Source of the DNA: Flammulina velutipes
Taxonomy: Eukaryota; Basidiomycota; Agaricomycetes; Agaricales; Physalacriaceae
Length of the DNA: 64,000 nt
Direction: 5' to 3'
Assembly (NCBI GenBank): GCA_011800155.1
Contig: CM022375.1
Coordinates: 1,984,001 to 2,048,000, forward strand
Shown here: positions 4,298-53,759 of the stretch, piece by piece
Numbering within the stretch: position 1 is the first letter of the stretch
Layout of the letters: the number at the start of each line of letters is the position of its first letter
Notes under the pieces: model-generated
What the model was told of the DNA's origin: nothing
Seen by the model: only the letters and a program-made list of their open reading frames with translations
The model's database searches: none
Made by a program: the position numbers and the translations under genes

Positions 4298-6366
4298 TTA
4301 TGCCGGCCAAAGATCCAGCCATTTCTTGATATACCCATCTCCTTCCATTTCAAGTTCGTAAGGCTCGCTCGAGATCATTACCGTAACACCAGTGGTATCG
4401 GTATCCGCAACTGCCATTCGGCCGCGCGCTTGAAGATTATCTTCAAGGTGAGCCAATACGGTCACCCCGTGGTATGGATCGTCTGGGGAGCAAATTTCAG
4501 TGGCGTTCAAGATTGAATTCGAGCACTCACTCTTCTCATTCAAGTACACTGCCCTTTTCGGCCATTTATTTGGAAGCCCATACTGTCTATTCGTCTTCTC
4601 AACCTGCGGGTCGATTCCCCTCCGATACTTACCAGGGAAGTAGTTCTGGCAGATTCTCTGATGACAATGTCAATCGGAATGTTCAAGAAATGAGTGCGCC
4701 TACCTCTTCACGATCCAGGTTCAAAGTCAACGAAACAATACGTTGTGAGTGTAACGGGGCGGTCTGACAAAAGAGATGGATAGATATAAGACTTGGAGTA
4801 AGTCAAGAAATGACTTACCTGGAACCAGCCAAACCTCATGCACCTGCCGGAGTCAACTCAAATACAGTGTAAGGGTGTACAACTCACTTTAACCAATTTA
4901 ACACACGGGCCCGTGAAAATTTAGAAGATGGGCGGATGTCAGTATATTTTGGCACATTCGGGTCATGTGTCGTCCATAACTCACTGTGTAAGTCTAAGTG
5001 ATCTCACATGAACAGTCGACAGAATGACTCACTTCGTGTCATTGCCATACTTCTGCTCATTATAAACCCCCCATTCTCTCAAGATCCCACCTATGGCATC
5101 TCTCTTATGGGCACCATCGGATAGAGCCTCGCAGAACATCGTTAGCGAAGCCTCATTCATCGGCATATTCAGAGTCCTGATTGATGACGAAACTAGTTGA
5201 GGGCAGAAACATTAGAAATCTCAACCTCGTTACAAGATAGGACGATGACATACGAACGAACGCCACATCATCGAAATGGAAGATTTTCTGTAATCCTAGC
5301 ATATCTCTAAGTTGGTGCTGCCCCACGGCGTCTTTGGTTTCTACTGTTTTGTCAACAGATAATATGGCTATACCAATATTCTTTGCACATTCTTGAGGCA
5401 TTGCCTTTGCGACATCGCGCCAGTATTGAGAGAAATCTCTGGGGAACAAGGGGATTAGCATACTGGTCCTAGAACAGCGGAACATTCGAACATACAACGT
5501 CGCGTGAACCATTCCAGACAAAGAGTAGCCTGCCCAAAATACTTGTGGATCTCTGTAATTGAAATTGGTGGTTAGTACTATGCATTGTTCTTGAATGATC
5601 CACACCGCTCACCTGGTCAACGCCCAGTGCACAATTCCACCTAAATTGTGAGCCGCTAGCCTCCCTCAAGCATGAACTAACCAACCTGCATATCCGGACC
5701 CTATGAGAACCCATGGAACACGATGAGACTCTAATCCACTGTTCAGTCCTCTCAGAGCAAATTGCTCTAGATCACCGATGACTTGGGATATTGTCAAGTA
5801 CTCGAGATTCTTCTCTGAAAGGTCGTCAACGGGGAAGCTTTTCCCAAAATATCGGTGCTCTAATAGGACCATCATTCCCCCGTTTTTTCGCGCCAGCCGA
5901 TCGCATGTAGATTCCTCGCCAAGTAGGCTCGGAGCAGCGACTGGGAAGGCAATAAAATCAACACCACTAGACCACTGGACAAGAAATACGGAAATCGAAC
6001 CTTCTGCATCGACGTCACCTCCAATTACCAAGAAGACAGGACCGTCTAAGAAGAGACATCAGCTCAGTTGGCCCGCAGTAAGATAGGTCCGTACGCCTAA
6101 CCTTCTCGATAATGTGTATCCTTGACCCAGTAGCGCTGTGAGAAGACTTGTGGTCGATCTTCCTCTTCTTGGTCTATTGCTTGTTCATGATAGAAGGACC
6201 CTTGGATGCCCTCGGACGTCCCGCCGGGAAACTTATATATCGGTAGTCCTCGTTTTATTCTTCCTCTGAGCAGTACATCAGCTGACTTGACATCAGAAAT
6301 CGGTTTTGCGGCGACCAAGTGACTAGCAATAAGGGTACAGAGGAATAGGATAGCCTTGAGGCTCAT
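4298..6366 (-). CDS. Secreted S28-family peptidase homologue lacking the catalytic Ser and His (paralogue A)
   Basis: Peptidase S28 (Pro-Xaa carboxypeptidase) fold, multi-exon. A signal peptide (MSLKAILFLCTLIASHLVAA) is followed by the family landmarks QRYWVKDTHY, GPVFLVIGG, LEHRYFGKSFP, VPWVLIGSGYAG, GIVHWAL, FWAGYSLSGMVHA, a helical YWRDVAKAMP segment and the C-terminal DDPYHG. The active-site consensus is G-G-S-Y-x-G; here it reads G-S-G-Y-A-G, so the nucleophile position is Gly. The C-terminal HHxxDx motif that carries the catalytic His is also absent: the region reads ISSEPYELEMEG. The Asp of DDPY remains. The protein is therefore predicted to be secreted but inactive as a serine peptidase. 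It is the tandem twin of the next gene, with long stretches of near-identical DNA. TATA at 6406-6413 and a shared element at 6445-6458. Confidence 0.88.
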
Positions 6367-6405
6367 GTTCAGCGATCTTCAAGGGAAGGGTGACTTGATT
6401 GCCAT

Positions 6406-6413
6406 CTTTATAG
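6406..6413 (-). promoter_or_regulatory. TATA box of S28 paralogue A
   Basis: CTATAAAG on the gene strand, 40 bp upstream of the ATG. The same position is occupied in every full-length S28 gene of this window. Confidence 0.65.
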
Positions 6414-6444
6414 ATGAAACGAAATGATGAACTGCAAGGAAGAC

Positions 6445-6458
6445 TGTCGGTGGAGACC
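6445..6458 (-). promoter_or_regulatory. Shared upstream element, S28 paralogue A
   Basis: Gene-strand GGTCTCCACCGACA, 79-92 bp upstream of the ATG. Related sequences stand at nearly the same distance before paralogues B, G, H and I. Confidence 0.4.
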
Positions 6459-6632: not shown

Positions 6633-8730
6633 TTAGTAGACCGGAGGGTTCTCTCTATACCAGACGTTCAACCATTTTTTGATATACTTGTCTCCTTCCT
6701 CATCATATATTTCTTGGTCCTCTTTCGTCACTACAGTAATACCACTGGTATCCACAATCGCCATTCGGCCTTTCACTTCAAATTTATTTTGGAGGTGAGC
6801 CAATACGGTCACCCCATGGTACGGATCATCTGGGGAGCAAGTTTCAGTGGCGTCCCAAGATTGAATATAAGCACTCACTCTCCTCGTTCAAGTACACTGC
6901 CCTTTTCGGCCACTTATCTGGGGGCCCATACTCACTATTCGTTCTCTCAACCTGCGGGTCGATTCCCCTTCGATACTTGCCAGGGAAGTAGTTCTTGCAA
7001 ATTCTCTGATGACAATGTCAGTCGGAATGCTAACGAAGTGAGTGCACCTACCTCTTCACGATCCAAGTTCAACTGCAACGAAACAATACGATGTGGGCGC
7101 TGCGGGGCAGTCTAGAATATAGATGTATATAAGAGACGAGCACTCAGAATCAAGAAAGAACTTACCTGGAACCAACCAAGCCTCATACACCTGCCGGGGT
7201 CAATCCAAGTACTTTATAAGGTGTGCGCCGCTCACTTTAACCAATGGAACACCCGCGGCGACACAGGAGATAGGCGGATGTCAGTATATGTCGGCACGTT
7301 CCGGTCATATGTCGTCCATTTTTCACTGTAGATAGCCCAATAAGTTACTTCACATTGACAGTCAACAAGATAACTCACTCGGTGTCATTGCCATACTTCT
7401 GCTCGTTATAAATCCCCCATTCTCTCAAGATCCCACCTATGGCATCTCTCTCATGGGCACCATCGGATAGAGCCTCGCAGAACATCGTTAACGAAGACTC
7501 TTTTCTAGGCTTGTCCAGAGTCCTAATTCCTGCTGACACTAGTCGAGGGCAGAAAGATTAGATATCTCAACCTCGTTACAAGGTAGGACGATGACATACG
7601 AACGGACGCCACATCATCGAAATGGATGATTTGCTGTAATCCTAGTGCATCTCTGAGATCGATCATCCGCCCAGGGTCTCTGGATTCGATTGTGTCGTCA
7701 AAAAATAACACGGCCCTACCAACATTGTCCGCACATTCTGGGGGCATCCCTTTTGCGACATCGCGCCAGTATTCGGAGAAATCCCTGGAGAACAAGAGGA
7801 TCAGCAAACTGGTCCTATAGCAACGGAGCATTGAAACATACAACGTCGCGTGAACCATTCCAGACAAAGAGTAGCCTGCCAAAAACAGTCCGTGATCTCT
7901 GATTGTGGCGGTTAGTACCGTGTGCTATTTTTAACGATCACGTCACTCACCTAGCCAGCTCCCAGTGCACAATTCCACCTATATAGTGAGCTACTGGCGT
8001 TATTTATCACGAATCGACTCACCCGCATATCCAGACCCTATTAAAATCCATGGAACCCGGGCCTTTCTACCAGGCCGTAATTCTTCGAACTTGCCGTTCA
8101 GTCCTCTCAAAGCAAACTGCTCTATATCACCCAGGACTTGCGTTATCTTCAAGTACCTGAGATTCTTCTCTGAAAGGTCCTCAACGGGGAAGCTTTTCCC
8201 GAAGTATCGGTGCTCTAACAGGACCATCATCCCCCCGTTCTTTCGCGCCAGCCGTTCGGATACTGAATTCTCGCCAAGGAGTCTCGGAACAGCGGCTTAG
8301 AGGGAGACAAATTCAGCGCCACTAAACCACTATAAGAGTAGTACAGAAATCGAACCTTCTGCGTCAACTTCACCTCCAACGACTAAGAAGACAGGACCTT
8401 CTAAGAAAGGGACATGAGATAAGTCACAGTAAAAGACGTTCGTGCACTACTTTCTTGATAGTGCGTATCCTTGACCCAGTAGCGCTGGAAGAAGGTTTGT
8501 GGTCGATCTTCCTCTTCTTGGTCTATCGCTTGTGCATAATAGAAAGGCCCTTGGATGCCCTCGGACGTCCTGCCGGGAACAAACTTGTATATCGGTAGTT
8601 CTCGTTTTATTCTTCCTCTGAGCAGTATATCAGTTGACTTGTCACCGGGAACCAGTCCTGCGGAGATCGACTGGCTAGAGAGGAGGGTACAAATGAAGAT
8701 GATAGCCTTCAAGTTGAGGCTCATATGCAT
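6633..8730 (-). CDS. Secreted S28-family peptidase homologue lacking the catalytic Ser and His (paralogue B)
   Basis: Tandem duplicate of paralogue A. Start options are 8730 (MHMSLNLK) or 8724 (MSLNLK); a signal peptide follows either. Landmarks are QRYWVKDTHY, GPVFLVVGG, LEHRYFGKSFP, PWILIGSGYAG, GIVHWEL, YSLSGMVHA, an EYWRDVAKGMP helix and DDPYHGV. As in A, the nucleophile position is Gly (IGSGYAG) and no HHxxD motif is present near the end (TKEDQEIYDEEG), while the Asp is kept. The usual FWAG is FLAG here. Introns sit at the same places as in A, and intron sequences also align, which suggests recent duplication. Predicted to be a secreted pseudo-enzyme. TATA (CTATAAAG) at 8771-8778 and the shared element at 8810-8823. 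Confidence 0.88.
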
Positions 8731-8770
8731 GCTGGGTGATGTTTGTATTGAAGGACTGTTTGCTTATCGT

Positions 8771-12754: not shown

Positions 12755-13876
12755 GCTGCAAAGAAGAAAGTCAAATCGCGCTCAATGTCGGAAAAGGACT
12801 GAAATGATACGACACTGGACACGCGGTGCAAAGAGCGCGTTGATGGTGCCATATCGCTGGGAAACGGCTCGTCGACGTCGCGAACGACGAGCAGACAGGA
12901 CGAGAATGCCACCTACACTGAAGATTATCGTGGAAAGAGGAGAGAAAGAGGTTGGGTTGCTGGAGGCACAACGACGAAGGGTCAAAGGAAATCGAAAAAT
13001 GAACCGGATGTCGGAGCTTCAAATATTCAAGGTCCGACTCTTCTCACGCAGGTTCGCTTCCGTACACGTTCCCTCATTATTCCATGTCATTGCCTTGAAA
13101 TACAGCCCTGTACAGACGTGTTAGTACGTCCTGTATAATGTAATAGGTGCGCCACCAATTATTGTAAAACCACTAACTCTATGTCATAGTAGCCGAAATC
13201 ACATCCGCGCCACCGACCCGACGCTAATTTTGACATGAGGGACTTTCGTTGGCGAGCAAGCTCCAGTGACTATCTGTCCTCGATTCAAGGACCGTCGAAG
13301 TCGTAGTGCTTAACAGATGACTTGGGAACAAAGGAGGACTCTTGTCCAACATTTTCATCCTGTACGCTTCGATTTACTGGCGATAAGACCGCTTCAACTC
13401 GATGTCATTATGGTCCCGTCATAGCGTTCCACGATGTCGCGAAACAGTGGCAGCTGACATTTTCCAAAGCTAAGTTTTCACAGCTGATATCGTGTCATAT
13501 TGCTCTCTGTGCATCTCCGTTGGTTTGACTTTCTACTTCGTCATTGAACATTGTTCCCCTCTTCGAAGACACTATAACCTACTGTCTGGTGTTTCTACGG
13601 CTTATGTATCTCAACCCATGGACGCGCAAACCCTTGCTCGTGTATTCTTGGATTCTACTTTGTGATTCGTCGAACACCAGATGAGCGATGATATCGCCTA
13701 GCCAGTAAGGATATTTCCCATAAACCTCTCCAATATCTATATAAGCTCTTCCCACTTTCGTAGTTCAACCAGCAACCCATCTAGCCCATCCTCAGGTAAA
13801 TCCTCCTTCTCTTCTCACTATCCTACGCAGCCACCTAACTCCTGTTCAATTAGTTCATATCGTCTCACCACCCATC
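12755..13876. promoter_or_regulatory. Divergent region between beta-tubulin and FIP genes
   Basis: About 1.1 kb. A TATATAAG box at about 13738-13746 lies roughly 130 bp before the FIP start codon and is followed by pyrimidine-rich tracts, as expected for a strongly expressed fungal gene. Several small frames near the tubulin start are shadows of low-complexity sequence. No other gene was recognised. Confidence 0.5.
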
Positions 13877-18908: not shown

Positions 18909-19428
18909 TGGCGCTCAGCGTCAGTCTGTATGAGCTCGAGGGACATGTAACTTTTATGCAGCGCCTGGTGGTATAAGTACAACGTTTCTAAGGCTGTTCC
19001 GGCGGTGTAATTCATCAACCGAACAATAGAATCGGTCGCTGATGGGCCATGTGGCTGAACAAGATCGACGACGTTCGCACCTCCACAGACCCTCGGTACG
19101 AAGCCAGAAAGCGAGACTACGGGAGGCTACGATGATTTTAAGAGTGCTAGTAGGTACTTGTTTTCTTCCTTACTCCTTCCTTCCGCGACTAATGCTCAGC
19201 TAGTGTGCCAGTAGTGTGCCCACCAGGGTTTGATATTTGGGCGGTCACCGATAATGCCGCAAACTTCGGGCCGATTCCGCATATTCACAGTCTGAGTTTG
19301 TCGTGTGTCGAAGAGCACTCGGGAGATGTTGTATGACAAGTAGAAAGCCAAAGAGTAATTGATATATTTTGTCTAGACTCATTCTAAGTCAATACGGGAC
19401 GAGGACATGGAAACCTCCACCATGGCAT
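18909..19428. other. Intergenic region
   Basis: About 520 bp between the 5' end of the membrane-protein gene and the 3' end of the split S28 gene. No feature recognised. Confidence 0.4.
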
Positions 19429-20738
19429 TTACTGTAACTTTTGCCATTCGTCCAACCACTCTGTAATCAATCCCTGGACACCATCCTGGACACTGTACAT
19501 CTCTCGCCCCACGGGATCTACAAAGTCGCTCATATGGTGGCCATTTTCTGTGTAAAACACTGGGGCGTCAAGGAGAACGGATGAGTCAACCTCCATTGCC
19601 TTGAAGGTCACACCGAGATACGGATCCTCTAATGATGCAGCTTTAATTAGTCCATTGAACACTGACCGCGATGAGTAGTTTAACTCACTTCCACCTGTAG
19701 TGAAGACTACTTTCTTTGCTCGCCGATCCCAACCACCATATACTCCATTGGTCGCGTTGATGGCGGGGCTAGCAGTCAGATTTCTATAGCGTTTAGGAAA
19801 GTAAAGCGAGCACACTCTCTACAAGTATTGGCGTCAGTTCGGCTAAGGCCCAGAGAATATGCGGAGCACGTACAAGTTCGCGCTCTAGTGTAATGAGTTG
19901 TGACACGACTGGATCCTTGTCCGGCGACGGAGCGGTCTACAGGACAATGTCAGCAAATAGAGATAATAACAACGATGGTCGACACTGACAAAGAACCAAC
20001 CATATTCAGTACATCTGTACATTATTGTCAGTCGCCCGTTTAAGTTTCGTTATCGTGCGGCACACTCACTGTAACCACTTCCAAACTCGTCTATTGTCTC
20101 GATTCAAGTCCTGATATATGGTCACGTTGGGATTATGTGTAGTCCAGGAGTCGCTAATATAGCGTAGAGGTAAGCAGAGGAGCGCAATTTATGAAGGCAA
20201 CTTACTCAACGTCATGCTCATACTCTCTCAAATTCCACCTCCTCCATGCATTCACCAAATGATGTGTGTTCCTCCTTCTTGGAGGCACTCTTTCCCCCTT
20301 CTTGTCCTGCCCGAGCGTGTTGCACAATTTATCGAACCTAGTATATTTTTTCGGCCGAACCATGTAATCAACCTGCGACCAGTGAGCAACATCGAATGCC
20401 ACTAATTCTCACATTAGAAGTTGTATAACATAGACGTGCGCGTCTACGTACTGATTCCAGCGACATCATCAATATGTTCAATCTGCGGAAGCCCCAAAAC
20501 TTCTTTGAGTTTTGTGAGTTCCCCCTCATCGTGAGAGAAAGCGTGAGAGTCGAAGTACTTCACGACCTTTTGGATGTCACGAGCACAGTCCAATGGCATT
20601 TTTCGGGCAGTGTCGTCAAAGAATTGCCAGAAATCCCTACGAGACAAAATGCCATTAAAATCAGAATGATGGAAAGGAATTTAACGGTACATCTTCGCCT
20701 GGACCATTCCAGAAGATGAGTATCCTGCCCATAATATA
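19429..20738 (-). pseudogene. 3' half of an S28 peptidase gene, cut off by the Helitron (paralogue C/D)
   Basis: Exons read from the Helitron junction: LWAGYSSSGMVQAKM, then DFWQFFDDTARKMPLDCARD, FDSHAFSHDEGELTKLKEVL, GLPQIEHIDDVAG, AFDVAHWSQVDYMVRPKKYT, and the C-terminal exons VYGGWDRRAKKVVF, TGGSE, EDPYLGVTFKAME, GHHMSDFVDPVG and a final LITEWLDEWQKLQ. The catalytic Asp (DPYLG) and His (GHHMSDF) are present. No internal stop was seen in these exons, so the damage is the insertion alone. The missing N-terminal half, with the intact nucleophile motif, is found beyond the Helitron at 28932-29741. Together they match the layout of the intact paralogue E. Confidence 0.87.
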
Positions 20739-20740
20739 TC

Positions 20741-20757
20741 CCCTTGCTGGACAAGGG
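20741..20757. repeat. Hairpin at the Helitron 3' end
   Basis: CCCTTG-ctgga-CAAGGG: a perfect 6-bp stem with a 5-nt loop, a few bases inside the border. Helitrons terminate with such a 3' hairpin. Confidence 0.75.
20742..20753 (+). repeat. Subterminal inverted repeat of the Helitron, 3' side
   Basis: CCTTGCTGGACA; exact inverted complement of 28891-28902. Confidence 0.7.
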
Positions 20758-21375
20758 TTCTCCACTTGTGATATTTGTCGCACTTTTCGTTGCATACAGT
20801 ACATACATGCAAACAACGAGCACTGCATTATTTCGCCTGTCTGTTTTCTCTTTGGGCCATACTATACACTTACTTTGGGCAACCGTCGGAAGCTTTCAAT
20901 TTTTTTACGGTGTGTCCTATGTTCCACGAGTCCCGACCCATGCTTAAGGAGTCTGCAAATATTGAACGTCCGATATTATTGTTGTCACTAAGGGTTATTG
21001 TCACGATATTTCGACACCCTCGATGCAGGTTCGACGTCCGACACTGCCTCCTTCGCCCGCCATCGACTGTGGGAATACTTCTGGCTCAGAATTTCTCCCA
21101 CGCGGCTTACAGTGTGTCGTTCAAATGTGGTCGCTCGCTAGCGCTCACTCACAACCTCCCATTTCAAAATGGTCGTGCTCAGGCTCCTGGTCTTACATCA
21201 CAATGCCGCGAGACAATGCTCGAAAATTACATGGTATGCTTTAATTTCTATATGCATTGCTGCACTTCTCAATCCCTTCAGTCATCGTTTAACTTCAAGA
21301 TTTAGACAACTATGCCAGGTCGACATGTCTACGCGCTTCAAACCCCGATTGTACAACATTTATTTCTTTGTCTAC
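20758..21375. other. Non-coding 3' part of the Helitron
   Basis: About 620 bp between the terminal hairpin and the stop codon of the Rep-helicase. Frames here have no recognisable domain. Confidence 0.4.
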
Positions 21376-27395: not shown

Positions 27396-27629
27396 AGTAT
27401 ATGGCGGTGGATGCAGAAATTGGCTCGGCTATAGTCAACCGTGATTATGGCACATGCCTCACGCTCTCCGTTCTCTCTCCATTCTCTACTGCTTTGTTTG
27501 GTAGTGTCAAAGCATTCTCTGACGCCCATATTTCGTCACAGTCCCTTCATTAACTCACGCACAGACCAATACTGCGGCCTATAACTGGACCTCACTTCGA
27601 CTACCCTTGCTTTCTCTCTACCTCCTTGA

Positions 27630-28931: not shown

Positions 28932-29741
28932 AGTAGGGATACCTGCGTGGCATATAAGTCTTAGCAATTGGTGTTACGTAGAAGTAAGACTTTCATAAGC
29001 CTAGCCCAGTTCACCAGCCCGCCTAGGTGAACCAATTGAATCACATTCCTTTCTGCTCCTCATTGTTGGGCACTGACCTGGAAAGCTGCCCCCGATGAGA
29101 ACCCACGGCACCATACTAGCTCTGAGAGGAGGCCGGTTCATTCCAGTCTTCGCAAAAAATGCAATGTCACCTAGTAATTGTCTCGTTGTCAAATATTTGA
29201 GGTCGTCCTCCGAAAGATCGTCGACGGGAAAACTCTCCCCATGATACCGAAGCTCGAGGATGACCATCATTCCTCCGTTTTGTTTGGCCATTTCATTGAA
29301 CATCGATATTGAGCTGAACATAATCTGATGGTCTGTTTGGTGATGTCAGATACCTCAAAGAATGAGAAAGCACGACGGACCATCTGCTATATCAGAGATG
29401 AGCAAAAATATTGGACCACCTACAAGGAAGCGAGATGAGTAAGATCTTTCCATATAAACAGTAGTCATATACATACTTTGAACATAATGAGCGTCATTCA
29501 CCCAATAACGTTGTTTGAACGTTTGTCGCGCGTCGTCGTGGTCGATCCACTGGCTAAAATAGAACGGTCCTTTAGCAAGACCATTCATGGACTGTAAGAA
29601 GTCTCCGTCGTATTCATCATGTCGTGGAGAAAGAAATCGCTTCCTAGAGCTCCGAGTTATCGAATCACTAGAGATCAAGGTGGCGGAGATGACAAGCCCA
29701 GAGAGAATTAGCCAGAGCAGCCGTATATGTTTGGAGGTCAT
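28932..29741 (-). pseudogene. 5' half of the S28 peptidase gene split by the Helitron (paralogue C/D)
   Basis: Starts with a signal peptide (MTSKHIRLLWLILSGLVISA), then GPFYFSQWIDHDD, FKQRYWVNDAHY, GGPIFLLISD, ILELRYHGESFPVDDLSEDD, and PWVLIGGSFPG with the catalytic Ser in place. The next exon reads GLVNWARL, and the last codons before the Helitron are YPY. The order and intron positions match paralogue E, and both have ELRYHG where the Ser-less members have EHRYFG. With the 19429-20738 half, this was a complete, probably active secreted peptidase before the insertion. Transcription from its own TATA box (29776-29783) would now run into the Helitron. Confidence 0.88.
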
Positions 29742-29775
29742 TGATTTGTGAGCTACGAGCTACAGGTCGTCGATG

Positions 29776-29949: not shown

Positions 29950-30180
29950 GTTACATTATGCCCAGTAGCGTTAATGGAAGCGAGGAGACTCTGTAGGGTC
30001 TACATTTTGCATGAATCGGAAAGGCCTTTGAACTTTGTCAGTCATCTTTGTGTCTTTGAGCGTACTGATAATCTGTGGATACGGCTCGTTGGGGCATCCG
30101 GCGCCGCATGCGCCAGAGAAAGCCGACTCTGCAGCGACGAGCTGGACCAGGATGGAATAACACAGGAATTGGAGGCGTGT
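29950..30180 (-). pseudogene. Relic of an S28 gene N-terminus
   Basis: The minus strand reads LQFLCYSILVQLVAAESAFS, a signal-peptide remnant close to those of paralogues G and H, then KVQRPFRFMQNVD and RFH-stop-RYWA-stop. These match the family blocks VQGPF-Y-xQ-x-DH and F-x-QRYWVND, with two stop codons. Nothing of the rest of the gene remains next to it. The 102-codon plus-strand frame over this stretch is only its complement. Confidence 0.75.
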
Positions 30181-31236
30181 GAGTTTTTTTGAGCGCGAAA
30201 TCTACAATGAAATCACACTCACCAGCCCTATTTATGGTTTAAACAAGGCGATAGCGCGGGCTTGTAGATAAGAGACCGAGAACGTCACAACGCAGTCCAT
30301 CCTGCGAGACACTTATTTCAAGACGATCCCATACGCTAAGAGTCGATGATTCTTTGTGTGACGACGCCACCTTGATGTTGATCCCGATTCTCGAGGTGAG
30401 AAACTTGGCCGGGTGGCATTACTTACAGTAGTACATTCCGAACAAGACAATGCAATGCACGAGTAGCGAGACATCCATGTCGGATCTGTAATAGTATTAT
30501 GAATAGTAAGAGCCTACGACTCTACGTTCACCTAGAAACAGATGCTGATGGACTCAACGGATGACTTGCGTGGCAGTGAGACCAGTTGATGCCTCTAGCT
30601 GGGATCTGTATTCGACATTCGTGCTGGGGGGGAAATTGTCGACAGTGGCGGCACTGATGGAGAACGATGCTGAAGCCTGCGGAACGCGCCTAGTAGTAGA
30701 GATTACAAGGGTATAATGAGTTATTTTACAAGCTGGAGGGAAAAAAGTTCACATTAACATAGTATTTCATAGGGATGTTTTAGTAATCACCCACTGTAAT
30801 TGCTATCCGAGCGTGGTTCAAATAGTATTGACGACTCATGAGAAAACACCTGCGAGCGGTTAAGACTGAGCTTTTCATGGTACGATGTTGTGCAATTCTC
30901 CTTCTGATTTTCGTCGAATGTGACGGAGAAAAGAGAGGGAGGAGGTCAAGAGGCGGTCGTGGTTTGAAGGAAAGAAACCGGACCGATCATCCAGGCTTCG
31001 CATGAATAGAGGTCTATCGTTACAGCAGATGACAAGCCTGTCATATTGTTCATTACAATGGCAATTGTGCATAGTATGGGCCCAATATATCTTTAGCGCA
31101 AGCAATAAGAGAAGCATAGTGGCGCCGCCACTCTACAGCATGTGATGATGATGTGGCTGTGCATTTGCCAACAAGGATCGTTTGCGCGCTTTGTTTTCGA
31201 AACAGGCCTTGTCCTTCTACCTTCACCATCGTCGCT
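30181..31236. repeat. Decayed copy of an S28 upstream region
   Basis: Two blocks here match the region upstream of paralogue G at similar spacing from the start codon: about 30523-30590 with 43725-43790 (around GAAACAG...ACTCAACGG), and about 30930-31010 with 44155-44240 (around CCGATCATCC). The S28 relic therefore came from a duplication that carried about 0.8 kb of upstream DNA. The right part also holds the NC2-alpha promoter. Confidence 0.6.
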
Positions 31237-33050: not shown

Positions 33051-33849
33051 TCTCACGCGACAGGCAAGCAAAATCACCTAGCCGTAGTATTTCACACGCT
33101 GACTGTCTAAAAGCTTTCTTCCATCCGTTTTGAAACGTTTCAAAGATGTTGATTTGGTGAGATCTGGTCAACAGATAAGCAATAGCACCTATATGATTGG
33201 TGTGTAACCGTAGTACGCCACACGTCGATAGGTTTGTATATATATAGACTACTTATACCTTGCCATACATCCTGAAACGAATTGAACATAGTTAACAAAA
33301 TATGCGCCGCTGGTTTGCTATCATGTACTGCCTAAATTTTGCTTGTTCACGGGAGGTATTTACTGCTTGTTGCCGACCTGTGGGGCTGACGGCTTGCCGT
33401 CGGCTGTTTCCACCACCACCACCACGAGTGACGAAACAACATGTCAAAAACAGAGTTCGGATGGTCGGTCCGCATCTTTCCCTTGAGCCACAACCACCTG
33501 GCCTCATTTGTGAGCCCTGTGCTCCCTAAAGCTCCTGAAAGCTCAAACGGACGTGACTCGATCGTACCTGGACAAGCTTACAGACACCGCATTCCTGCGA
33601 CTGAGACTATACGCCACACACACAAAGCTTCATCATCAATACTGTCGCGACAGCCTACTATCCGACGACTCAGCGCCCTGCTGTGACTCATACATATGAT
33701 ACTGCCAATCCGCCTGGTAACGAAACAAACGGCAGTGGACACTCATACCCTTGATGAGCCTCAAAAGTTTCAACCTAACAACGAGGCAAATACTCGCTGA
33801 TAAGTATAGCTAATTTCGCGTCCAGCGGGACGGCACAGCCCCTTCGTAG
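33051..33849. other. Intergenic region
   Basis: About 800 bp. It holds a TATATATATAG tract near 33236 and a poly-purine/pyrimidine stretch near 33411. Small frames at 33302-33529 and 33441-33686 have no recognisable domain. Confidence 0.35.
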
Positions 33850-34280
33850 AGCTGATAGGGATCCTATGGGTTCTCATCGGGGGCGGCTTTCCAGGCCGGT
33901 ACCCGATAACGAGAAGTAGAACCGAATCATGTTGAATCGGCTTTCCTGGGTGGTGGGCATGCGAATCGGGCTAGGCTTATGCAAGTGTTTTCTTTATGTG
34001 GCGGCACTTACTACTACCAGGACTAACGGATTGTGCAGATATCCCTATATATTTTGGGCAGGATATTCGTCCTCTGAAATGGTACAGGCGAAGGCGTATG
34101 TACCATCAAATTCAAGGTCATTCCAACACTAACGGCCACTTTTTCGTAGCAATTTCTGGCAATTCTTTGACGATACTGCGTGCAAAATGTCATGAGACGT
34201 CTGCCGAAGGAGATGGCGCCAACAGGGATTCGAAGGAAAGAGTTCGCGCATCACGTGTCCGTCAAAGACAGTTCCAATTC
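33850..34280 (+). pseudogene. S28 pseudogene fragment (paralogue F)
   Basis: The plus strand gives LWVLIGGGFPG, a mutated NWARL exon, YPYIFWAGYSSSEMVQAK and NFWQFFDDTACKMS-stop. DNA similarity to the split gene C/D is high over the same stretch, including the intron between the first two blocks. The N-terminal third and C-terminal half are missing. The nucleophile position is Gly (GGGFPG). The region 34281-34850 that follows has no recognised gene and contains the promoter of paralogue E. Confidence 0.8.
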
Positions 34281-34808
34281 AAAAGTTGAACTCATGCTCG
34301 TTCCGAACTCTTACCACCACAATGAATCTTGCGCCTCTCTGAAACGCCGAGGACATCAGCAGTGTGCTGTCGACTCAATCTGTGCAGGACGGATACCGGG
34401 CATTTGTTTGCCGAATACGACAACACATCTACATGATACTACGTACATGGTTCACGCATCACCATAAGTCTAAGGACTACACTGGTTACAAAGGTGTGAC
34501 AAACAGTTTTCTTTCGTTCGTCGCGTGCTAAATGTGAGCCTTATAGAGTACAAAAGCAATTCAGGGGGTCTGACTGCCGTGGCAGTCTTTCGCCGTAACC
34601 ATGCGCCACATTTCCATCTCATCAGTTATATTGTGATAGCAAGTCCAAAAATACCACATTGGCAGTACTTGGATACTTCCCGTGAGCAAGTACACATTCC
34701 GTTGGTTCCTCACTCACACTGCAACAAACTCACAGCCTCCCGGGAGTTGCTATAGCTAACAAGGAACCATGAGCTCTTTTAACGAAAGAATTGACACTGG
34801 ATGTTTTG

Positions 34809-34850: not shown

Positions 34851-36968
34851 ATGGAATTCCGACCCACAATAGTTCAGCTATTCTGGCTTGCCCTCGCTTG
34901 CCAGCTCATCGCGGCCAACCCTATTTCTAACAACTGGATGAACGAAAAACGCTTGCTCAAGTCACGCTACGGTAGAAACGAAGAATACGACGGCGACTAC
35001 CGTGCCCGCACCGATTCACCCTATAAAGGGCCTTTTTATTACGCGCAGAAGTGGAATCACGACAGCCAATCAGAAGTGCCATTTAGATTCGAACAGCGTT
35101 ATTGGGTTAGAGATTCACATTACGCCCACGGTACGTGCAGAAAATTCATCGATCAGGCTAACTAACTCAGTTCGATCTAGGCGGCCCAATCTTCTTGATC
35201 ATCTTGGAAATGGCAGACGGTTCGTCCATCCCACTCTTTTGGTACTTCCCCTGTAACGGACATAGACTTGAAGACCATTTTCGATGAGCGTTCGATGTTT
35301 GTCAGCATGGCTACACGCCACAAGGGAATGCTAGTCGCTCTAGAACTTCGGTATCATGGGAAGAGCCATCCCGGCGACCTTGACAATGACAGGCTCACGG
35401 AGAATGAACTAGATGTGGCCATGACAACGCGACAAATGCTCGAAGACTTAGCAGCGTTTGCGAAATCTGGAATGAAAAATTATGATTTCACACCCTATGC
35501 GGCACCATGGGTCCTCGTTGGGGGTAGTATTTCAGGTGAGGAATTGACAAATGGGCCCTGATCGATTTCACTTCAACTTACTCGCAGGCTCGTTGGTGAA
35601 CTGGGCGAGACTTCGGTTAGTCTCTTTCGATACCCTTCTCGCGCTGAAGCTCTAGAACGCGCCACACAGATATCCAAACCTATTTTGGGCGGGATATGCA
35701 TCTTCTGCGATGGTTCAGGCGAAGCTGTACGTAGCATTAGATACTTTGACGTCGCTATGCTGATAACCCATTTGTGATACAGTGATTTTTGGGAATTCTT
35801 CGACTCTACCGGTAAAAAAATACCAGCAACCTGCGCAAATGATATCAAACGCGTGATATCTTACTTCGACCATGAAATTGCCAACAGAAGAGAGTCGAAG
35901 CTAAAAGAAACCCTAGGGCTCTCACAAATCGAACATATCGATGATGTTGCTTGGATCAGTACGTCGTCGCGTGCATTCAGCCTTCGCTGCTTCTAATCTG
36001 AATTCTAGTGGCGCATGACGTTGCCTTTTGGCTCGAGGTTGATTATATCAATCGGCCCTCCGCGAACAATAGATTTGATCGATTATGCGACATGCTCGCG
36101 TTGGATAGCAAAGGAGCTCGGGTACCGGCAGACAAGAGGACGTTAGATCAGTTGCTGACCGCTTGGAAGGTGTGGAATCTGAAGATACATGGGAATGAGA
36201 CAGAGTAAGTTGTTCTGAATCTCTATGCTGTTGCTTATAACTAGACTGTAGCGATACTTGGACTTCGCATGATCGCGACGCATCCAGATTTAAGGACTTG
36301 AAGATGAGTGATTGGCGAAGATGGAGATGGCTACAGTGAGTTTCCATTCATGTTCATCGTAGCTGGTCGCCTGATGTCGAATGTTCAGATGTACTGAATA
36401 TGGCTGGTTCTATGTTAGTGTTCTTAATTGTCTGTTTCAGCTCTATATATTGATAATACCATTGCGTAGACAGCCCCACCGAAAAGCATGGACCCAATTG
36501 TCTCTCAACAGCTGACACTCAAGCGTGAATTGGTGCATTCTTTCTCTCATGTCTTTCTCTTCAGCTCGGCTGATCAGTGATTACAGAGGATGTGCTCGTA
36601 TTACTTTCCAGAGACGTACAGTAAGCCTACCTTTATGGGTCCAGAAATCTCCAAGACGAATATGGAGTATGGTGGCTGGGGTTCCAAACGGGCGAAGAGA
36701 GTGTTTTTTGCAAATGGAGGAAGTAAGCATTCTACCAAGTGTTGTATGCATGGGCTGAATGTGGGCAGGGGATCCATATCTCGGTGCGAGTGTCATGGCC
36801 GAGAACTCTGGATATGTGCCTCTTGAAGGTAGCCCAGTGGTTCTAAAGAAAGATGGGCACCACATGAGTGATTTTTACAATGAAGTGGGTGGAAAGATGT
36901 CTGATATACAGGAAGCTGGACAGCGCTTTATTACACGGTGGCTGGCAGAATGGAAGGAACTTCATTAG
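34851..36968 (+). CDS. Secreted S28-family serine peptidase, catalytic residues intact (paralogue E)
   Basis: The only uninterrupted S28 gene here with a normal active site. The ATG at 34851 begins a signal peptide (MEFRPTIVQLFWLALACQLI). Landmarks: GPFYYAQKWNHD, FEQRYWVRDSHY, GGPIFLIILEMAD, LELRYHGKSHP, PWVLVGGSISG (nucleophile Ser), SLVNWARL-RYPNLFWAGY, SSAMVQAK, DFWEFFDSTGKKIP, IEHIDDVA, HDVAFWLEVDYINRPS, then YGGWGSKRAKRVFFANGGS, DPYLGASVMAE (Asp) and GHHMSDFYNEVGGKMS (His), ending RWLAEWKELH. Family members cleave Pro-Xaa bonds of peptides in the lysosome or outside the cell; secretion is inferred from the signal peptide. Multi-exon with about 50-bp introns. Groups with the split gene C/D by ELRYHG and TATA position. 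Confidence 0.92.
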
Positions 36969-41103: not shown

Positions 41104-41310
41104 TGCGTAGACGGCATTGGCAAATGGATATTGATGATACATGCATCGAAAAGTCACCGCTCATTCGCTGGTTCCAACATGGGTAGTTGGCCTTCCTTCT
41201 CTTTTCTAGCTTCTTTTCTCTAGATCTTAGTGCTGAGTCCTCAGAATCCGAATATTCTTGCTCTGAATTTTGTGATTCGAACAACTGAGTACTTATCCTC
41301 TCCATCGTCC

Positions 41311-43451
41311 TATTTCTGCTTATACCAGTTATCTACCCAGACTCTGATGTATCCCTCGGCCCTTAGTTGAAAAGAGTTCATGGGGCCATCTGGCACTTCA
41401 CTCGCAAAATCACTGAGGTGGTGCGCCTCTTCCACGAACACCACAACGGATCCTCTCCTCTTGACGGGTTCGGATTTACCCTCCATAGTTAAGCCAATGT
41501 TTGGATCGTCTGGGTAGAGATTTCAATACCGTCCGAGGATTGAGCACTGACACTCACTACCGCCAATCATGTATACTACTCTTCTCGGTATCTTGGAAGA
41601 GCCCCCATAAAAGAAATTCGTTTTATCGGTATCCGGGCCCCCTTTTCCCTTTAGTTTAGGGAAGTAGTTTTTGCAGATAGTCTGAGAGAACATTGCATAT
41701 CAATCAGCCCGTTCAATAAATGAGATGCTGGAGGTCATACCCATTCGCGATTGGAGGTCAATTGCTTCGATACGATCTTCTTAACCCCTTTACGATCGTG
41801 TTGGCGAGTCTACAGACATTAGGGTGGTACCATACACAGTTAGAATATATCGTACTTACCTTGAACCAACCAAGCTCGTTGCATCTATCCCAGTAAATCA
41901 ATGTCGTCGGTGAATCAACATTGTGCAACTCACTGTAACCACTTAATCACACGTTGTCCTTGGCCGCTATATAACTGAATATCGGTATACTCTGCACGGC
42001 GCGGATCATGGCTACTCCATTGATCACTACAATATGCCTATCAGTTTACCGTGGATGAATCTGGCGGTGGGACAGCACACCTGGTCATATTCCCATATGT
42101 TTCCGTATTCCAACGCCCCCATGCTCTCAAGGCCCGGCTCCGATGGTCTTTACCTCCCTCGTCTCGTTCGAGTGCATTGCAAAATTTTTCAAATCGATAT
42201 TTTTCATTGTGTGGCAATGGGGTCAGGTAATCAACTTTCAGCCAGGTTGCGATGTCAGCAGAAACTAGAAGTTGGCGTTAGAAACACAGACAATTTGGAT
42301 GTGCTTATATCGCGACATACGAATTTCAGCAATGTCATCCAGATGTTCGAACTGTGACAGTCTCAGCTTCATTACTACCTCTTCGATCTCCGCTTTGCCA
42401 TGATCGGCAACTACGTCGTCGAAGTACTCTACGACTGCAGCGACATTTTTCGCACAGGATTTGGGCATCTTGTTGGCTACGGAGTCCCAGTATGCCCTGA
42501 AGAAACTAAAGAAATGTAATGAGGATACTGCCGATTTGGTCACTGACACAAACACACACTCCTTGGCTTTAACCATTGCAGAGGAGGCGTAGCCGGCCCA
42601 AAATATCTCTGGGTATCTGTGAAAAGAAGTAGCAGGGTTTGTGGGCCGTCCCATAACGACTGCACTCACTTATTCATGGCCCAATGCACGACCCCACCTG
42701 ATGGTTAATCCCCTAAGTCACTGCTCCGATGTAGATGTGTCGACTGACCTGAATAACCGCCGCCTATTAGAACCCACGGGACTGTGCCTCTGTTACCAAG
42801 AGAGCCAGCACTTAGGGCTCCGTTGTTCATTCCAGTTGAGGCGAAACGTCGTAGATCGTTCAGGACTTGGCCTATCGTCAGGTACTCCAGATTCTCCTCC
42901 GAAAGATCAGCGATATTGGGGAAACTTTCCCCGAAGTACCGATGCTCGAGAACGACAAGCATTCCGCTATTCTTCATTGCCATGCGGTTGAACATTGAAT
43001 TACTATCCAGCATATTCAGGATGTCTAAAAACGGCAGTAATATCAGCATCACGAAGAGAAAAGAAAAGTGAAAGTTGCTAACTTTCCGCATTGGTTTCGC
43101 CGGAAACAACCAAGAAGACGGGACTGCCTAAAGGCGGAAATGAGAGACAGAAGAATACGTCTATATATATGTACCTTGCCTATAATGCATATTTTTGACC
43201 CAGTAGCGTTGATAAAAGAGCGGAGATCCTGGTACGGTACCTCTGTGGTCCAATTTTTGGGGAAAGAAGAAAGGGCCTTGAGTCTCATTAGTTGATACCG
43301 TAAATTCGTTGTGCCTATACTGTGAGGATGCTTCTCGTTGGGATATCCTGAGCCGTATGAGCCTTGGACTGCTAGTAGAAACCAGTTTGGCAGCCACCAG
43401 TTGAACAACGAGGATGAAATGCCATAAGAATGGAAAGCCTCGAAATTTCAT
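41311..43451 (-). CDS. Secreted S28-family peptidase homologue without catalytic Ser (paralogue G)
   Basis: Signal peptide MKFRGFPFLWHFILVVQLVAA, then QGPFFFPQKLDHRG, FYQRYWVKNMHY, GSPVFLVVSGE, VVLEHRYFGESFP, PWVLIGGGYSG, YPEIFWAGYASSAMVKAK, AYWDSVANKMPKSCAKN, the C-terminal DDPNIG, AHHLSDFASEVPD and RVWVDNWYKQK. The catalytic Asp and His motifs are both present, but the nucleophile position in GGGYSG is Gly. The following Ser is two residues downstream and does not occupy the nucleophile position. Predicted to be secreted and inactive as a serine peptidase, though possibly still able to bind peptides. TATA-like CTATAAG at 43494-43500; shared element at 43529-43545. Convergent with delta-COP (about 210 bp between stops). 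Confidence 0.88.
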
Positions 43452-44302: not shown

Positions 44303-46439
44303 TCATCTAGAATACCATTCATCCACCCAAATTTTGATATTCGCTTCGCCATGGCGTTGAAATCTATCCATCGACCCTCCGATTCTAGTCCTCAGATCAC
44401 CCATATGATACCCCTCCTTTGCATATCCAAACTGTCCACCAGGATCGTTCCTGAGTTCTGGAGCCATAAAAGTCACGTCAATGTACGGATCCTCTTGAGG
44501 AGCAAGATTCAGTGACATTCACGTTGATTAGGTTCGAGTATGAACACTCACTACCGCCATTCATGTAATACACCCTATTCGCCGGCCCATTCCAGCCACC
44601 ATACATCTCGTTTATCACGTCGGTATTGGGGCGAGCTGTGGCGTCCCGATATCGCTGGGGGAAGAAGTTTTCGCAAATTCTCTGCGAGCAATGTTCCAAG
44701 GGAGAATAGATGATAGATCAAGTGGAGCTTACTAATTCACGCACGAAGGTCAACTGTTCCGAAACAACAGTGAAACCTCTAGTTATCTTCCTGCTGCGCT
44801 CCGGGGCTGTCTAGGTAGTATGTGAGATGCTGATTTCAGGTTGGTTGAAGTCAAGAGGGAACTCACCCGAAACCAACCAAGCTCGTTACAGCTGTCATTG
44901 TCAGTCAATACGTACCGGTACACCTACATAATGTGGTCACTCACTGTAACCAATGGACTGTACGCGGCGACACGGCAAACATTCTGATGTCAGTGTATTC
45001 CGATCTATGCTTGTCGTGACTACTCCAACCTTCACTATAATCAACTTGTCAAAAGTCCTTTCCGATCGCAAAAGATGATAAACTTACTTGGGGATTATAT
45101 CTCTGTTACGTACCTTATTCCAATCATTCCAACCTGAGAGTACTTGGGTAAGTGTTCCATGGGAGATTGCTTCGCAGAACCTAGCGAACACCTGCGTCTT
45201 TTCATACTCGACGAACTCGTTACCTACATTTAAGAAGTCCACCATGTCGTCCGATACTGGTTCCGAGGGTTAGGAATGTGGGACCACTAAAATGTAGGAT
45301 GCGTCGACGTACATACACGTGCGATATCATCTGTGTGTTCAATCTGTGATAATCCCAACCTACGTCTGAATTCTTTCAATGTATCGTCGTTAACGAGCAG
45401 TGTCCCATCAAACTCTTTTGCAGTTGTCGCAATAGCTTCGGCACAGGGTTCGGGAATTATTCGTGACATTCTGTGCCAGAATTGCCAGAAGTCTCTAGGA
45501 GACATAGCACCAACATGAGTATAGGTTGTTGCGATGATGAGTAACGTAAATCATACCCCTTTGCTCGAACCAATCCGGAGGACGAATAGCCAGCCCAAAA
45601 TAAGGATGGGTACCTGTAAGACTGTGTTATCATCATGCTGTGTGCTGTGTCAATCCGCCCTTACTTACTTATTCTTTGCCCAGTGTACCAGTCCACCTAC
45701 ACAGACGAAATGAGTTGACATTCAACCCCGCGTACATGGACCAACTGACCTGCATAACCGCCACCTACTAGAACCCATGGGACATCTTTGGCCCGCAATG
45801 CTTCATTGTCCATTCCATTCGAGGCAAATTGATATATGTCGCCCAGAACTTGACCTACTGTCAGATACTCAAGATTCTTCTCCGAGAAGTCCTCGACGGG
45901 AAAGCTATCCCCGAAGTATCGATGTTCGAGGAGGACAAGCATTCCCTTGTTTTCCTTTGCCATGCGATATAACATTGATTTATTGCCTAGGAGTCCCAAT
46001 TGATCTAGAAAGATAGCCACCAAATCAGCACCACTGTAAGTATTATGGGGATTAAGGAAAGAGATTGACCGGGTTGACTAGCATCCACCATGCCCCCAAT
46101 AATCAAGAAGACAGGACCATCTATTGGACGAAAATATGGCATTTAATCATGAGTATTCAGCAAGTCTCAGGACTCACTGTGCGCATGGTAGTAGTCATAG
46201 ACCCAATAACGCTGGCGGAAAGCGGCCGGTATCTTTCTTTTGCTGCCGTGGTTTACCTTCTGCCAAAAATCAAAAGGCCCTTGGACTTCGCGGGTCCTTG
46301 TGTACCTGTCATATCGGTAGCTGGATGGGGCTTGTCGCTGCATATTTTTGGCCTTGCCACCACTGAAAACGAATCCTGCGACGATTAAGTGACTAGAGAG
46401 GAGAAGATGACAGAGGAATTGAATAGTTTTGAGTTTCAT
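44303..46439 (-). CDS. Secreted S28-family peptidase homologue without catalytic Ser (paralogue H)
   Basis: The ATG at 46437-46439 gives the signal peptide MKLKTIQFLCHLLLSSHLIVAG; an upstream in-frame ATG at 46475 would put 12 extra residues before it and is less likely. Landmarks: VQGPFDFWQKVNHG, FRQRYWVYDYYH, DGPVFLIIGGM, VLLEHRYFGDSFP, PWVLVGGGYAG, GLVHWAKN, LFWAGYSSSGLVRAK, DFWQFWHRMSRIIP, IEHTDDIAR, YGGWNGPANRVYYMNGGSE, EDPYIDVTF and EGYHMGDLRTRIGG. Asp and His motifs are kept (YHMGD), and the nucleophile position is Gly (GGGYAG). TATA-like sequence at 46482-46489 and a weaker copy of the shared element at 46520-46534. Confidence 0.87.
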
Positions 46440-51100: not shown

Positions 51101-51388
51101 TTGCTTCGCGAGGAGAATGCTATTGCTGGACCTTCGACTTTTGCTACTTCATCCAATGCGCGAAGTGTCTCTGAGCTTCCGCTGGGACCGCCGCGTCCTC
51201 TTGCCATTCCTCGTATGTCGACCCCGCCGCGCGATCCACAGCGTTCAACTACGACGAACACATCGAGGTCCATGTTCGGGCCAGCGGGCTTCCAGATCGA
51301 TCCTTCGCTACCGAGAAGGAAGCGTGCACTGGGTGGGGGCAAGGGCAAGGGAAAAGCAAAGGAGGACTCAGAGAAGGAAGAACGATGA
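48176..51388 (+). CDS. Acidic, repeat-bearing protein of unknown function
   Basis: Four exons (introns after LALAE, after DDSGKG and after DDEEEDKKTNE) give roughly 1,000 residues. The N-terminal 150 residues are mostly helical and not recognised (TMADVQCIINAEMKHFDDEE; AGMKTQNLIELVRNVIGDAD). A long acidic region follows with three copies of DENDENQPP, two followed by (A/T)LPE(L/I)xLR and an (S/A)SD-rich stretch. After the second intron there are four repeats of about 35-40 residues, of the form R(V/I)SF(S/P)G ... R(R/Q)(E/Q)ATP...R, each with basic residues before Ser/Thr-Pro, so likely phosphorylation sites. A Pro-rich and Arg-rich C-terminus with nuclear-signal-like KRPREN and PRRKRALGGGKGKGKAK follows. 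A nuclear, phosphorylated, largely disordered protein is inferred; no known domain was found. Confidence 0.83.
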
Positions 51389-51587
51389 TTCATTGTCGTT
51401 TGCGTTGTACATATGATATACATACCTCTATCTATCTGGACTCGCGATTGCTGTATTACTTTTACCTTGCATTCACTTATATCACATGATATCTCTACTT
51501 TGGCGGAGACTGCACCAATATAATTCCTTGAAGCACGACGTATACCTGAAGATACGGTAGGAATATTATAACGAGAACACCGTGTTC

Positions 51588-53759
51588 TTAGTCTGAGTCC
51601 GTGCTGAGTGAATCCAAACGATACCATTGATCCACCCATCGTTCGATATATTCAAAGCCTTTCTTTGTTGCCTCATCCATGGCCCCATGCTCCCCTTCCG
51701 ATGATATGAAATCCTGCAGATGTCTTGCCCTTTCAACAACTTGAAGTTGGTCGCCCGCAGGATTCTTGTCCGGGCTGCGATTAGGATTGAACGACAGGCC
51801 GATGAATGGATCGTCTGGGAAAGATTGGGTGCCAGAGTCATGAATTCACCACACGTACTCACCGGCGCCATGTATGTAGAATACCGTCTTTGCAGGGCCC
51901 TCATGCCAACCTCCGTAAGTTTTGCTCACCGTCTTGGTATGTGGCATACTACTTTCTCCTTTATATCTCTTTGGGAAATAATTCTTGCAGATTGACTGAG
52001 CGGAAAGATAGATGAGAATGCTCAAAGAATGTGTTATCAACGAAGCTCACCCGTTCGCGATCTATGGACAAGAGTTTCGACACAATAGGCTTTTCTACTT
52101 CTCGGTGCTTTGCACTGGTCTGCTATAATATAAGGCTTTGATGTATAGAATCCGAGGACACTGTGCTGACCTTGAACAAGCCAAGTTCATTGCATCTATT
52201 GTCTTCGCGTTGAGTGTATGATGTGCCAGGTAATCCAGCGCTCACTTTAACCACCGAATTGCACGCGGTTGTCCTGGCCGATCGATATCAGTGTATTTCG
52301 GCTGGTTTGGGTTGTAGCTAGTCCATTGAGCGCTGTAACCATGTCAGTAGCAAATCGATGCACGTGGGACAACTCACTCGGTATTATTTCCATATACCCT
52401 TTCGTTCCACTTCCCCCATGTTTTCCGGGCCAAATCGAGTCTATCCACCTCGCCGACGGTTCCCCGACGTGCCTTTTTCAGTGCGTTGCAGAATTTTTCT
52501 ACTTTCAGAGGATATAACGCGTAGTCTATAGTGCGTGACACTGATAGACTCGTTAGGAATAAGGGCGTGGATATTGTGGCGACATACAAATCTCAGCAAT
52601 ATCGTCTGCATGTTTGATTTGGTTTAATCCAAATGCTCGTCCAATCTGTGTTCCCATGTCATCCTTTTTCGAGTAGTCATCAAATTCAGCCACGACGTTC
52701 GCGACATCGTTTACACAGTCCGCGTCCATTAACCGTGCGACATCCTCCCAGTATTCCCAATGGTTCCTAGGTAATCAGGCTGTGAGCATATGTATCCATT
52801 GACGAGTCCAAGTCGATGCGTACTCCTTTACTTGAACCATTGCAGACGAGGAGTAGCCAGCCCGAAAAACATTTGGACGATTTTGCACACTGCAGGACCA
52901 CAATGAGTGCCGGTGCGCTTCGTTTTGCAACAATTCATAGCACTTACTTCCTCATCGTCCAGTGCACCAGTGAACCTGAAAAGCAGTGGGCAACGTGAGC
53001 TGCTTTTCTCCATAATCGTGTACAGGTGCCAACTCACCTGCATATCCTCCACCTATCAAGACCCACGGGACGTACTCTTTTCCTGATCTGGGACGAGACG
53101 CAGCAATCAAACCCCGATTGCCCATTCCTGACTGAGCAAAACTTTGGAGATCGGCCAGGGCTTGCCCTACAGTTAGGTACTGTAGATTATCCTCTGAAAG
53201 GTCGTTGACAGGAAAGCTTTCGCCGAAGTATCGATGTTCGAGAACGACCAGCATACCCTGAGTTCGTTCTGCTAGACGAACAAATCTAGATTTGAATGTT
53301 TGGTCACTACCTAGTAGTCTTAAGCTATCTGTCGGGACGCCAATTACATCAGTACGGCAGCTGTGAGGGTGAGTGAAGACGTACTGCCAGCGGGCTCCAT
53401 ATTTGAAATCATCAAGAAGACAGGACCGCCTATGAGAAAGAGAATTAAGATTGCCCGGCGAATCATGGCTGAACGCTCAAACACTTACCATGTTGGTAGT
53501 GTTCGTCATTGACCCAGTACCGTTGGTCAAACAAATATTTGCCTGAATTATTAATGAAGTGGTCTATGTGCTGCTCGTAGTAAAAAGGTCCTTGAACGCC
53601 CTTGGTGACACGATTGCGGTGGTAGGAATATACGCCTTGGGATGCTCTTTTGCTCCCCGGTATGCCATCTATCTCACTGCTAGAAACCGGCCCTGCGGCA
53701 ATCGAGCGAGTAGCGAGGATGATAGAGAGTAGCAGTAGCGGAGTCGTTTTGAGGTTCAT
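51588..53759 (-). CDS. Secreted S28-family peptidase homologue without catalytic Ser (paralogue I)
   Basis: Signal peptide MNLKTTPLLLLSIILATRSIAA, then VQGPFYYEQHIDHFIN, FDQRYWVNDEHYQHG, GGPVFLMIS, VVLEHRYFGESFPVNDLSED, PWVLIGGGYAG, VFRAGYSSSAMVQVK, YWEDVARLMDADCVNDVANV, IKHADDIAEI, a C-terminal DDPFIGLSF, ERARHLQDFI and ERWVDQWYRLD. The Asp and His (ARHLQDF) motifs are present; the nucleophile position in GGGYAG is Gly. The usual FWAG reads FRAG. Predicted to be secreted and inactive as a peptidase. TATA at 53801-53808 and the shared element at 53837-53853. Confidence 0.88.

Follow-up and report, generated by a model that had tools for sequence, protein, structure and literature searches.

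The closest described relatives of the genes considered here are serine peptidases of family S28. In human PRCP, the catalytic triad is described as consisting of Ser179, Asp430 and His455, the putative oxyanion hole is made up of the main-chain amides of Tyr180 and Gly181, and the proline pocket contains Trp432 (PMC2893456). Three S28 peptidases are described in Aspergillus niger (PMC7804941), and FV-PEP of Flammulina velutipes is presented as an active S28 prolyl endopeptidase (PMC8541236). We analysed a stretch of 64,000 nucleotides of F. velutipes DNA (assembly GCA_011800155.1, contig CM022375.1, C8:1984001-2048000 in our numbering; hereafter the window), which contains a cluster of S28 genes, and extended the search to the whole assembly of 38.1 Mb in 23 contigs. 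In this genome, 16 of the 20 intact S28 genes carry a glycine codon at the position of the catalytic nucleophile, and four a serine codon; in the window, the proportion of glycine is five out of six. These are referred to below as Gly genes and Ser genes.

A Pfam search of the whole genome gave 22 exon matches over cut-off at 21 S28 (PF05577) gene places. Genome searches with the family proteins recovered exons of the known S28 genes and the far half of a gene that is split in the window, and revealed no S28 place beyond the 21; counts from such searches are lower bounds. Gene models were built with a purpose-written spliced protein-to-DNA aligner and then refined with a family profile. Complete spliced models that begin at an ATG, reach a stop codon and contain neither internal stops nor frameshifts were obtained for 20 of the 21 places, the remaining one being split by a Helitron. 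The C-termini of the C5_2408563 and C8_2056604 models were corrected by inspection; trees, approximately unbiased (AU) test, per-column counts and intron totals predate the correction of C8_2056604. Eight intron positions are common to 17-20 of the 20 intact genes. The splice dinucleotides (212 GT-AG and 11 GC-AG among 223 introns, 221 after the C8_2056604 correction) are no evidence for the models, since the aligner accepts no donor other than GT or GC and no acceptor other than AG. The four full-length Gly models checked against Pfam, out of 16, matched PF05577 with E values between 6e-44 and 2e-51.

In a phmmer search with an exon of gene I, one of the Gly genes of the window, the motif GGGYAG aligned on GGSYSG of PDB 8b57/7wab and on GGSYGG of PRCP (3n2z). 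At the level of aligned sequences, it is confirmed that the glycine of the 16 genes occupies the S28 catalytic serine position. The multiple alignment of the 20 intact genes showed serine at the nucleophile in C4, C5, C1_3517185 and gene E of the window, the last of which has isoleucine in place of the tyrosine of G-x-S-Y-x-G; the tyrosine that follows the nucleophile position is present in all 16 Gly genes. The catalytic aspartate is found in 13 of the 16 (two have Asn and one Glu) and the catalytic histidine in six, so both residues occur together in 5/16 Gly genes as compared to 4/4 Ser genes (Fisher p 0.026). The S1-pocket tryptophan (Trp432 of PRCP) is conserved in seven Gly genes, all belonging to what is called below the C1 group, and is gone from the nine of the C8 group. 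The residue preceding the nucleophile was glycine in 12 out of 12 canonical sequences in our first alignment; in the Gly genes it is G, S, A, V or N. No conserved serine appeared in the alignment at the neighbouring elbow positions of the Gly genes.

Other parts of the protein are maintained. All 16 Gly genes have the four cysteine columns and R136, G139, S141, D163, W188, G192, Y195, G197 and D282 (C4 numbering), and 15 of them encode a hydrophobic N-terminus, as judged by Kyte-Doolittle analysis and inspection of models whose start codons were chosen by us. The computations show that much of the scaffold is conserved while the histidine, the S1 tryptophan and the pre-nucleophile residue erode; they also show the Gly genes to encode homologues of the AnPEP-type fungal prolyl endopeptidases. 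By eye, the models of the C1-group genes end in a lysine-rich C-terminal tail. C8_2056604 (C8:2056140-2058416), a Gly gene, has an acidic tail rich in Asp, Glu and Ser that is absent from its sister C8_2050801.

Purifying selection on the Gly genes is shown by computation. With a one-ratio codon model, the ratio of nonsynonymous to synonymous substitution rates (dN/dS, or omega) was 0.382 in a set of six genes from the C1 group and 0.431 in the eight main genes of the C8 group, and in both clades omega = 1 was rejected, with twice the log-likelihood difference (2dlnL) being 226 and 224, respectively. These sets cover 14 of the 16 Gly genes, C8_2087956 and C1_3120378 lying outside both. Before the C8_2056604 correction, the estimates were 0.409 (C1_3120378 included) and 0.420. 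Pairwise omega, also calculated before that correction, ranged from 0.33 to 0.83 over eight pairs, seven of which reject 1 at the 3.84 threshold; the pair involving C1_3120378 was compared from column 130 onwards. The codon itself gives a second line of evidence. The nucleophile glycine is encoded by GGA in seven genes and by GGT, GGC and GGG in three each, and at least three silent changes, with no replacement, have occurred at this codon in each of two clades. Because two thirds of the changes in a glycine codon alter the residue, six silent-only changes would be expected by chance with a probability of about (1/3)^6 = 0.0014 if the site were free, assuming independence and equal rates.

Homologue searches yielded 23 distinct proteins, the weakest being P0023 with an E value of 0.12. 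Among the 21 database relatives that reach the site, 20 have serine and one, P0002, has leucine. P0002 (GTLYAG) resembles the Gly genes in being an S28 homologue that lacks the nucleophile serine, but the replacement is leucine rather than glycine and the protein clusters with P0019 and P0020, far from the expanded clade described below. It suggests that S28 pseudoenzymes may occur elsewhere. At the column of the histidine, P0002 has a serine. Both P0002 and P0011 come from the source 'lgn', which we take to consist of assemblies of public reads. P0011, which stops short of the site, matched C8_1974907 at 80% over 23% of the query, with one difference seen by eye in the first 92 residues; the C8_1974907 gene thus seems to be present also in another strain or close relative.

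P0011 and P0012, neither of which reaches the site, were left out of both trees, and P0017 and P0023 also of the larger one, which comprises 41 sequences. In the larger tree, 18 intact genes and the 5' half of the split gene form an expanded clade (support 94.2/94) that stands beside fungal AnPEP-type enzymes, C4 among them. Within it, seven Gly genes, none of them in the window, make up the C1 group (96.6/99). The C8 group (100/100) contains eight Gly genes (98.3/96), a ninth one, C8_2087956, and three members with serine, namely gene E, the split gene and, at the base, C1_3517185. A single clade of all 16 Gly genes was rejected, the constrained tree being 86 log units worse (AU p 1.7e-6). 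Therefore, as the computation shows, the state of the site switched between serine and glycine at least twice, by repeated loss of serine or by loss and regain. Grouping just the nine Gly genes of the C8 group was not rejected (AU p 0.166); added to the C1 clade, such a group would make two origins. When counted on the 41-sequence tree, three losses require as many steps as one loss with two regains; the simpler account is repeated loss, given that aspartate and histidine persist in the Ser genes. A more ambitious proposal, tentative and with the odds somewhat against it, is that the change from serine to glycine was adaptive and occurred in parallel along two or three branches of paralogues in a single fungal lineage. 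A prolyl-peptidase scaffold that served digestion would then have become a large and rapidly evolving secreted family for recognition, with dead S28 copies outnumbering live ones four to one.

Taken together, we consider it probable, at roughly three chances in four, that the Gly genes encode S28 pseudopeptidases that are secreted and act by binding, and that they form a rapidly evolving family specific to this lineage. The proteins would be exported and folded like S28 enzymes, as alpha/beta hydrolases with an SKS cap. Lacking the usual residue on which an acyl-enzyme is formed, they would be unable to cut peptide bonds. Their job would be to bind without catalysis, by way of the S28 groove or the surface, and this binding would most likely serve to recognize or sequester proteins or peptides outside the cell. 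Alpha/beta hydrolases have a sterically strained nucleophile elbow, and for this reason glycine may have been retained, as the residue that a tight elbow tolerates best once catalysis is not needed. Since the S1 tryptophan is lost in the C8 group and kept in the C1 group, binding of proline peptides is plausible mainly for the latter: C1-group proteins, with pocket tryptophan and lysine-rich tail, may still hold such peptides, and C8-group proteins more likely use their surface instead. The sequence-only reading of the window, from which this work started, had proposed a secreted pseudo-peptidase family kept by selection, with a peptide-binding or decoy role; the former part is supported, and the role is no more than conjectural, the pocket tryptophan being gone in the C8 group.

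Several observations weigh against this interpretation. Omega values near 0.4 are high, and in C7_2922674/C1_3120378 the estimate (0.83) does not differ from 1. In C1_3120378, which may be decaying, the signal exon is moreover lost. The N-termini must be read with caution, given that the start codons were picked by us in part for being signal-like. The loss of active-site columns (4/6) as compared to other canonical-invariant columns (12/44) is not significantly enriched (p 0.074), and some of the nodes that separate Ser from Gly genes are weak, with 87.6/66 for the one joining C8_2087956 and gene E and 84.4/67 for the one joining both to the eight Gly genes. Glycine was found at the site in 0/21 database relatives from outside this genome, in a database whose fungal coverage seems thin; the few fungal matches suggest that it is poor in fungal S28 proteins, and the absence of glycine elsewhere is therefore weak evidence.

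A further difficulty comes from the introns, which outmatch the coding sequence in two of four close pairs, an observation that is unexplained. In C7_2922674/C1_3120378 (C7:2921241-2923337 and C1:3118910-3121097) introns are 87% and coding sequences 79% identical, and in C8_2050801/C8_2056604 (C8:2050363-2052600 and C8:2056140-2058416) the values are 76% and 71%, or 73% and 71% in a whole-gene alignment. The usual order is observed in the A/B pair of the window (introns 74%, coding 82%) and in C7_2922674/C1_3113136 (64% and 75%). In each of the four pairs, the introns have diverged less than the synonymous sites by the Nei-Gojobori method (NG86 dS), the difference being slight in A/B. Gene conversion is one conceivable cause of the inversion; constraint on the introns and acceleration of the exons are others.

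The strongest rival is that the Gly proteins are partners of the active S28 enzymes (C4, C5, E and C1_3517185), with which they would pair to modulate folding, activity or substrate delivery. Four intact genes with a full triad do coexist with the 16 Gly genes; PRCP is described as a crystallographic dimer formed through the hydrolase domain, in agreement with solution data (PMC2893456), and CGI-58, which has no catalytic serine, is reported to be a lipase cofactor (PMC11878206). However, fast evolution and expansion to 16 genes suit a conserved subunit poorly, and we regard such a partnership as unlikely, if worth keeping in mind.

That the Gly genes are ordinary decaying duplicates, enzymes without serine drifting into pseudogenes, would agree with the raised omega, with the pair not distinguishable from neutrality, with the missing signal exon of C1_3120378 and with the Helitron-split gene and the remnants nearby. 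Yet there is not one stop codon or frameshift in 16 copies whose identity inside the two main clades is no higher than 37-72%, omega stays at about 0.4, and the glycine is invariant through silent change. Reading frames, omega and codon pattern reject pure decay for the family, for which it is very improbable; they do not reject it for C1_3120378. The selection rather than decay claimed from the sequence alone is supported by these results, and the dN/dS comparison that had been proposed as a check agrees with it in the two clades and disagrees in the one pair near 1. In C1_3120378, the place of the signal exon is taken by an inverted repeat (C1:3120963-3121281, spanning exon 1 and the upstream flank) with arms of 91 bases that are 96% complementary and lie 137 bases apart, and the N-terminus is not signal-like.

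Slightly less probable still is a changed chemistry, in which catalysis would be carried out by an Asp-His dyad or by a nucleophile that has migrated, as in serine-independent lyases among the alpha/beta hydrolases. Serine-independent members exist according to the description of this fold in PMC11878206, five of the 16 Gly genes keep both aspartate and histidine, and the tyrosine after the nucleophile is universal. On the other hand, 11 of 16 lack Asp or His and there is no conserved migrated serine. The serine beside the site in GSGYAG was ruled out as a migrated nucleophile because the pre-nucleophile position is variable, being occupied by G, S, A, V or N. RNA editing back to serine was also considered; the known adenosine-to-inosine (A-to-I) editing of fungi runs in the wrong direction for restoring it. 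Finally, an artefact of gene models, alignment or assembly, conceivable in that the models were made by ourselves from DNA alone and two C-termini needed correction, is the least credible explanation of all, since the nucleophile codon lies inside the exon of the EHRYFG motif (as in gene H, with shared intron positions on either side) and four different glycine codons are used across the 16 copies.

The organization of the window agrees with the sequence-only reading, which had counted seven S28 genes, one of them split by a Helitron, and two remnants within 50 kb: six intact genes, the two halves of the split gene and the remnants were all located, with the motifs that had been listed. That reading had assigned a nucleophile glycine to five intact genes, and the alignment with sequences of S28 structures, which it had proposed as a check, placed no other serine at the nucleophile; the genome-wide count given above shows that the scale had been understated. 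Genes A (4298..6366, 12 exons, 460 amino acids) and B (6633..8724, 11 exons, 470 amino acids) lie on the minus strand and share the motif GSGYAG, with GGA as nucleophile codon at 5693-5695 and 8030-8032, respectively; both have lost the catalytic histidine region and kept the aspartate. Also on the minus strand are genes G (41310..43451, 12 exons, 484 amino acids, GGGYSG, codon GGT at 42756-42758), H (44303..46439, 12 exons, 472 amino acids, GGGYAG, GGT at 45757-45759) and I (51588..53759, 12 exons, 485 amino acids, GGGYAG, GGA at 53045-53047), all of which keep Asp and His, the latter as had been stated beforehand. Gene E is found on the plus strand (34851..36968, 13 exons, 458 amino acids, GGSISG) and has an AGT serine codon at 35526-35528 along with Asp and His. 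Signal peptides had been claimed as well, and the hydrophobic N-termini agree with this. The claim that TATA boxes are kept holds for four of the six intact genes, where TATAWA occurs 41-53 bases upstream of the ATG; the other two have no exact match within 200 bases of it.

The split gene is on the minus strand, with its 5' half at 29076..29744 (GGSFPG, serine codon AGC) and its 3' half, detected by tblastn, at 19414..20797, also matched as C8:2003684-2004653. Between the halves, open frames for PIF1 helicase and Helitron_like_N were found at 21376-26044; the Helitron frames inside the gene (Helitron_like_N, PIF1 helicase and DUF6570, minus strand) extend over 21376-27428. A weak S28 remnant (29959..30295, minus strand) resembles an N-terminal exon with an E value of 0.002, and pseudogene F (33800..34387, plus strand) is a decayed S28 fragment with GGGFPG. 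Elsewhere in the window, the plus strand at 13745-14221 carries an exon of a gene for a fungal immunomodulatory protein (PF09259). Its product is identical to FIP-fve (PDB 1osy) in 100 of 114 aligned columns, a resemblance that points to Flammulina or a close relative. Between genes H and I, two adjoining long open frames of 491 and 577 codons (48179-51388, plus strand) encode an acidic and a Pro/Arg-rich product, respectively, with no Pfam match; a DNA search of the genome gave no second copy of them.

We found no S28 family with a glycine nucleophile in the open-licence literature, judging by titles and abstract openings. One large survey of fungal serine proteases is described as having dismissed likely inactive homologues (PMC5567314), so that families of this kind may be overlooked. 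According to a survey of 42 fungal genomes for proline-specific peptidases, there are no inactive homologues in the fungi studied (PMC8469457); the string S28 is absent from its text, and the family is perhaps not covered there. The Gly family is a natural set in which to ask what use is made of a peptidase fold that no longer catalyses, and as FV-PEP has been characterised and the mushroom genus can be cultivated, it is practical to compare dead paralogues with live ones.

Among known systems, the nearest are AnPEP (PDB 8b57/7wab), FV-PEP and C4, which share with the Gly genes the sequence family, the cysteine columns and the EHRY(F/Y/W)G motif, and in C4 also a signal-like N-terminus. They differ in that the Ser-Asp-His triad is present in the AnPEP-type enzymes and the serine is missing from the Gly genes, which are 26-36% identical to C4 and AnPEP. 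Human PRCP and DPP7, also of family S28, provide triad positions and one S1-pocket position that map onto the genes, but have a complete triad and the pocket tryptophan at the PRCP positions given above. Outside the family, the residue at the position of the active-site serine in neuroligins is a glycine. Neuroligins and other cholinesterase-like proteins are described as having an extracellular alpha/beta-hydrolase domain with no active-site serine and a binding role, although they belong to another hydrolase family, are membrane-anchored and act at the animal synapse (PMC8526735). CGI-58/ABHD5 is likewise an alpha/beta hydrolase without catalytic serine that serves as cofactor of active enzymes, in its case lipases, and is of yet another hydrolase family (PMC11878206). 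Ecm14 is reported to be a secreted, conserved fungal homologue of M14 peptidases with no detectable activity; however, it belongs to an unrelated metallocarboxypeptidase family and is a single gene in Saccharomyces cerevisiae (PMC7706225). Single pseudopeptidases are known, and what distinguishes the F. velutipes genes is that they form a clustered family of 20 intact members, 16 of which lack the nucleophile and always have glycine in its place.

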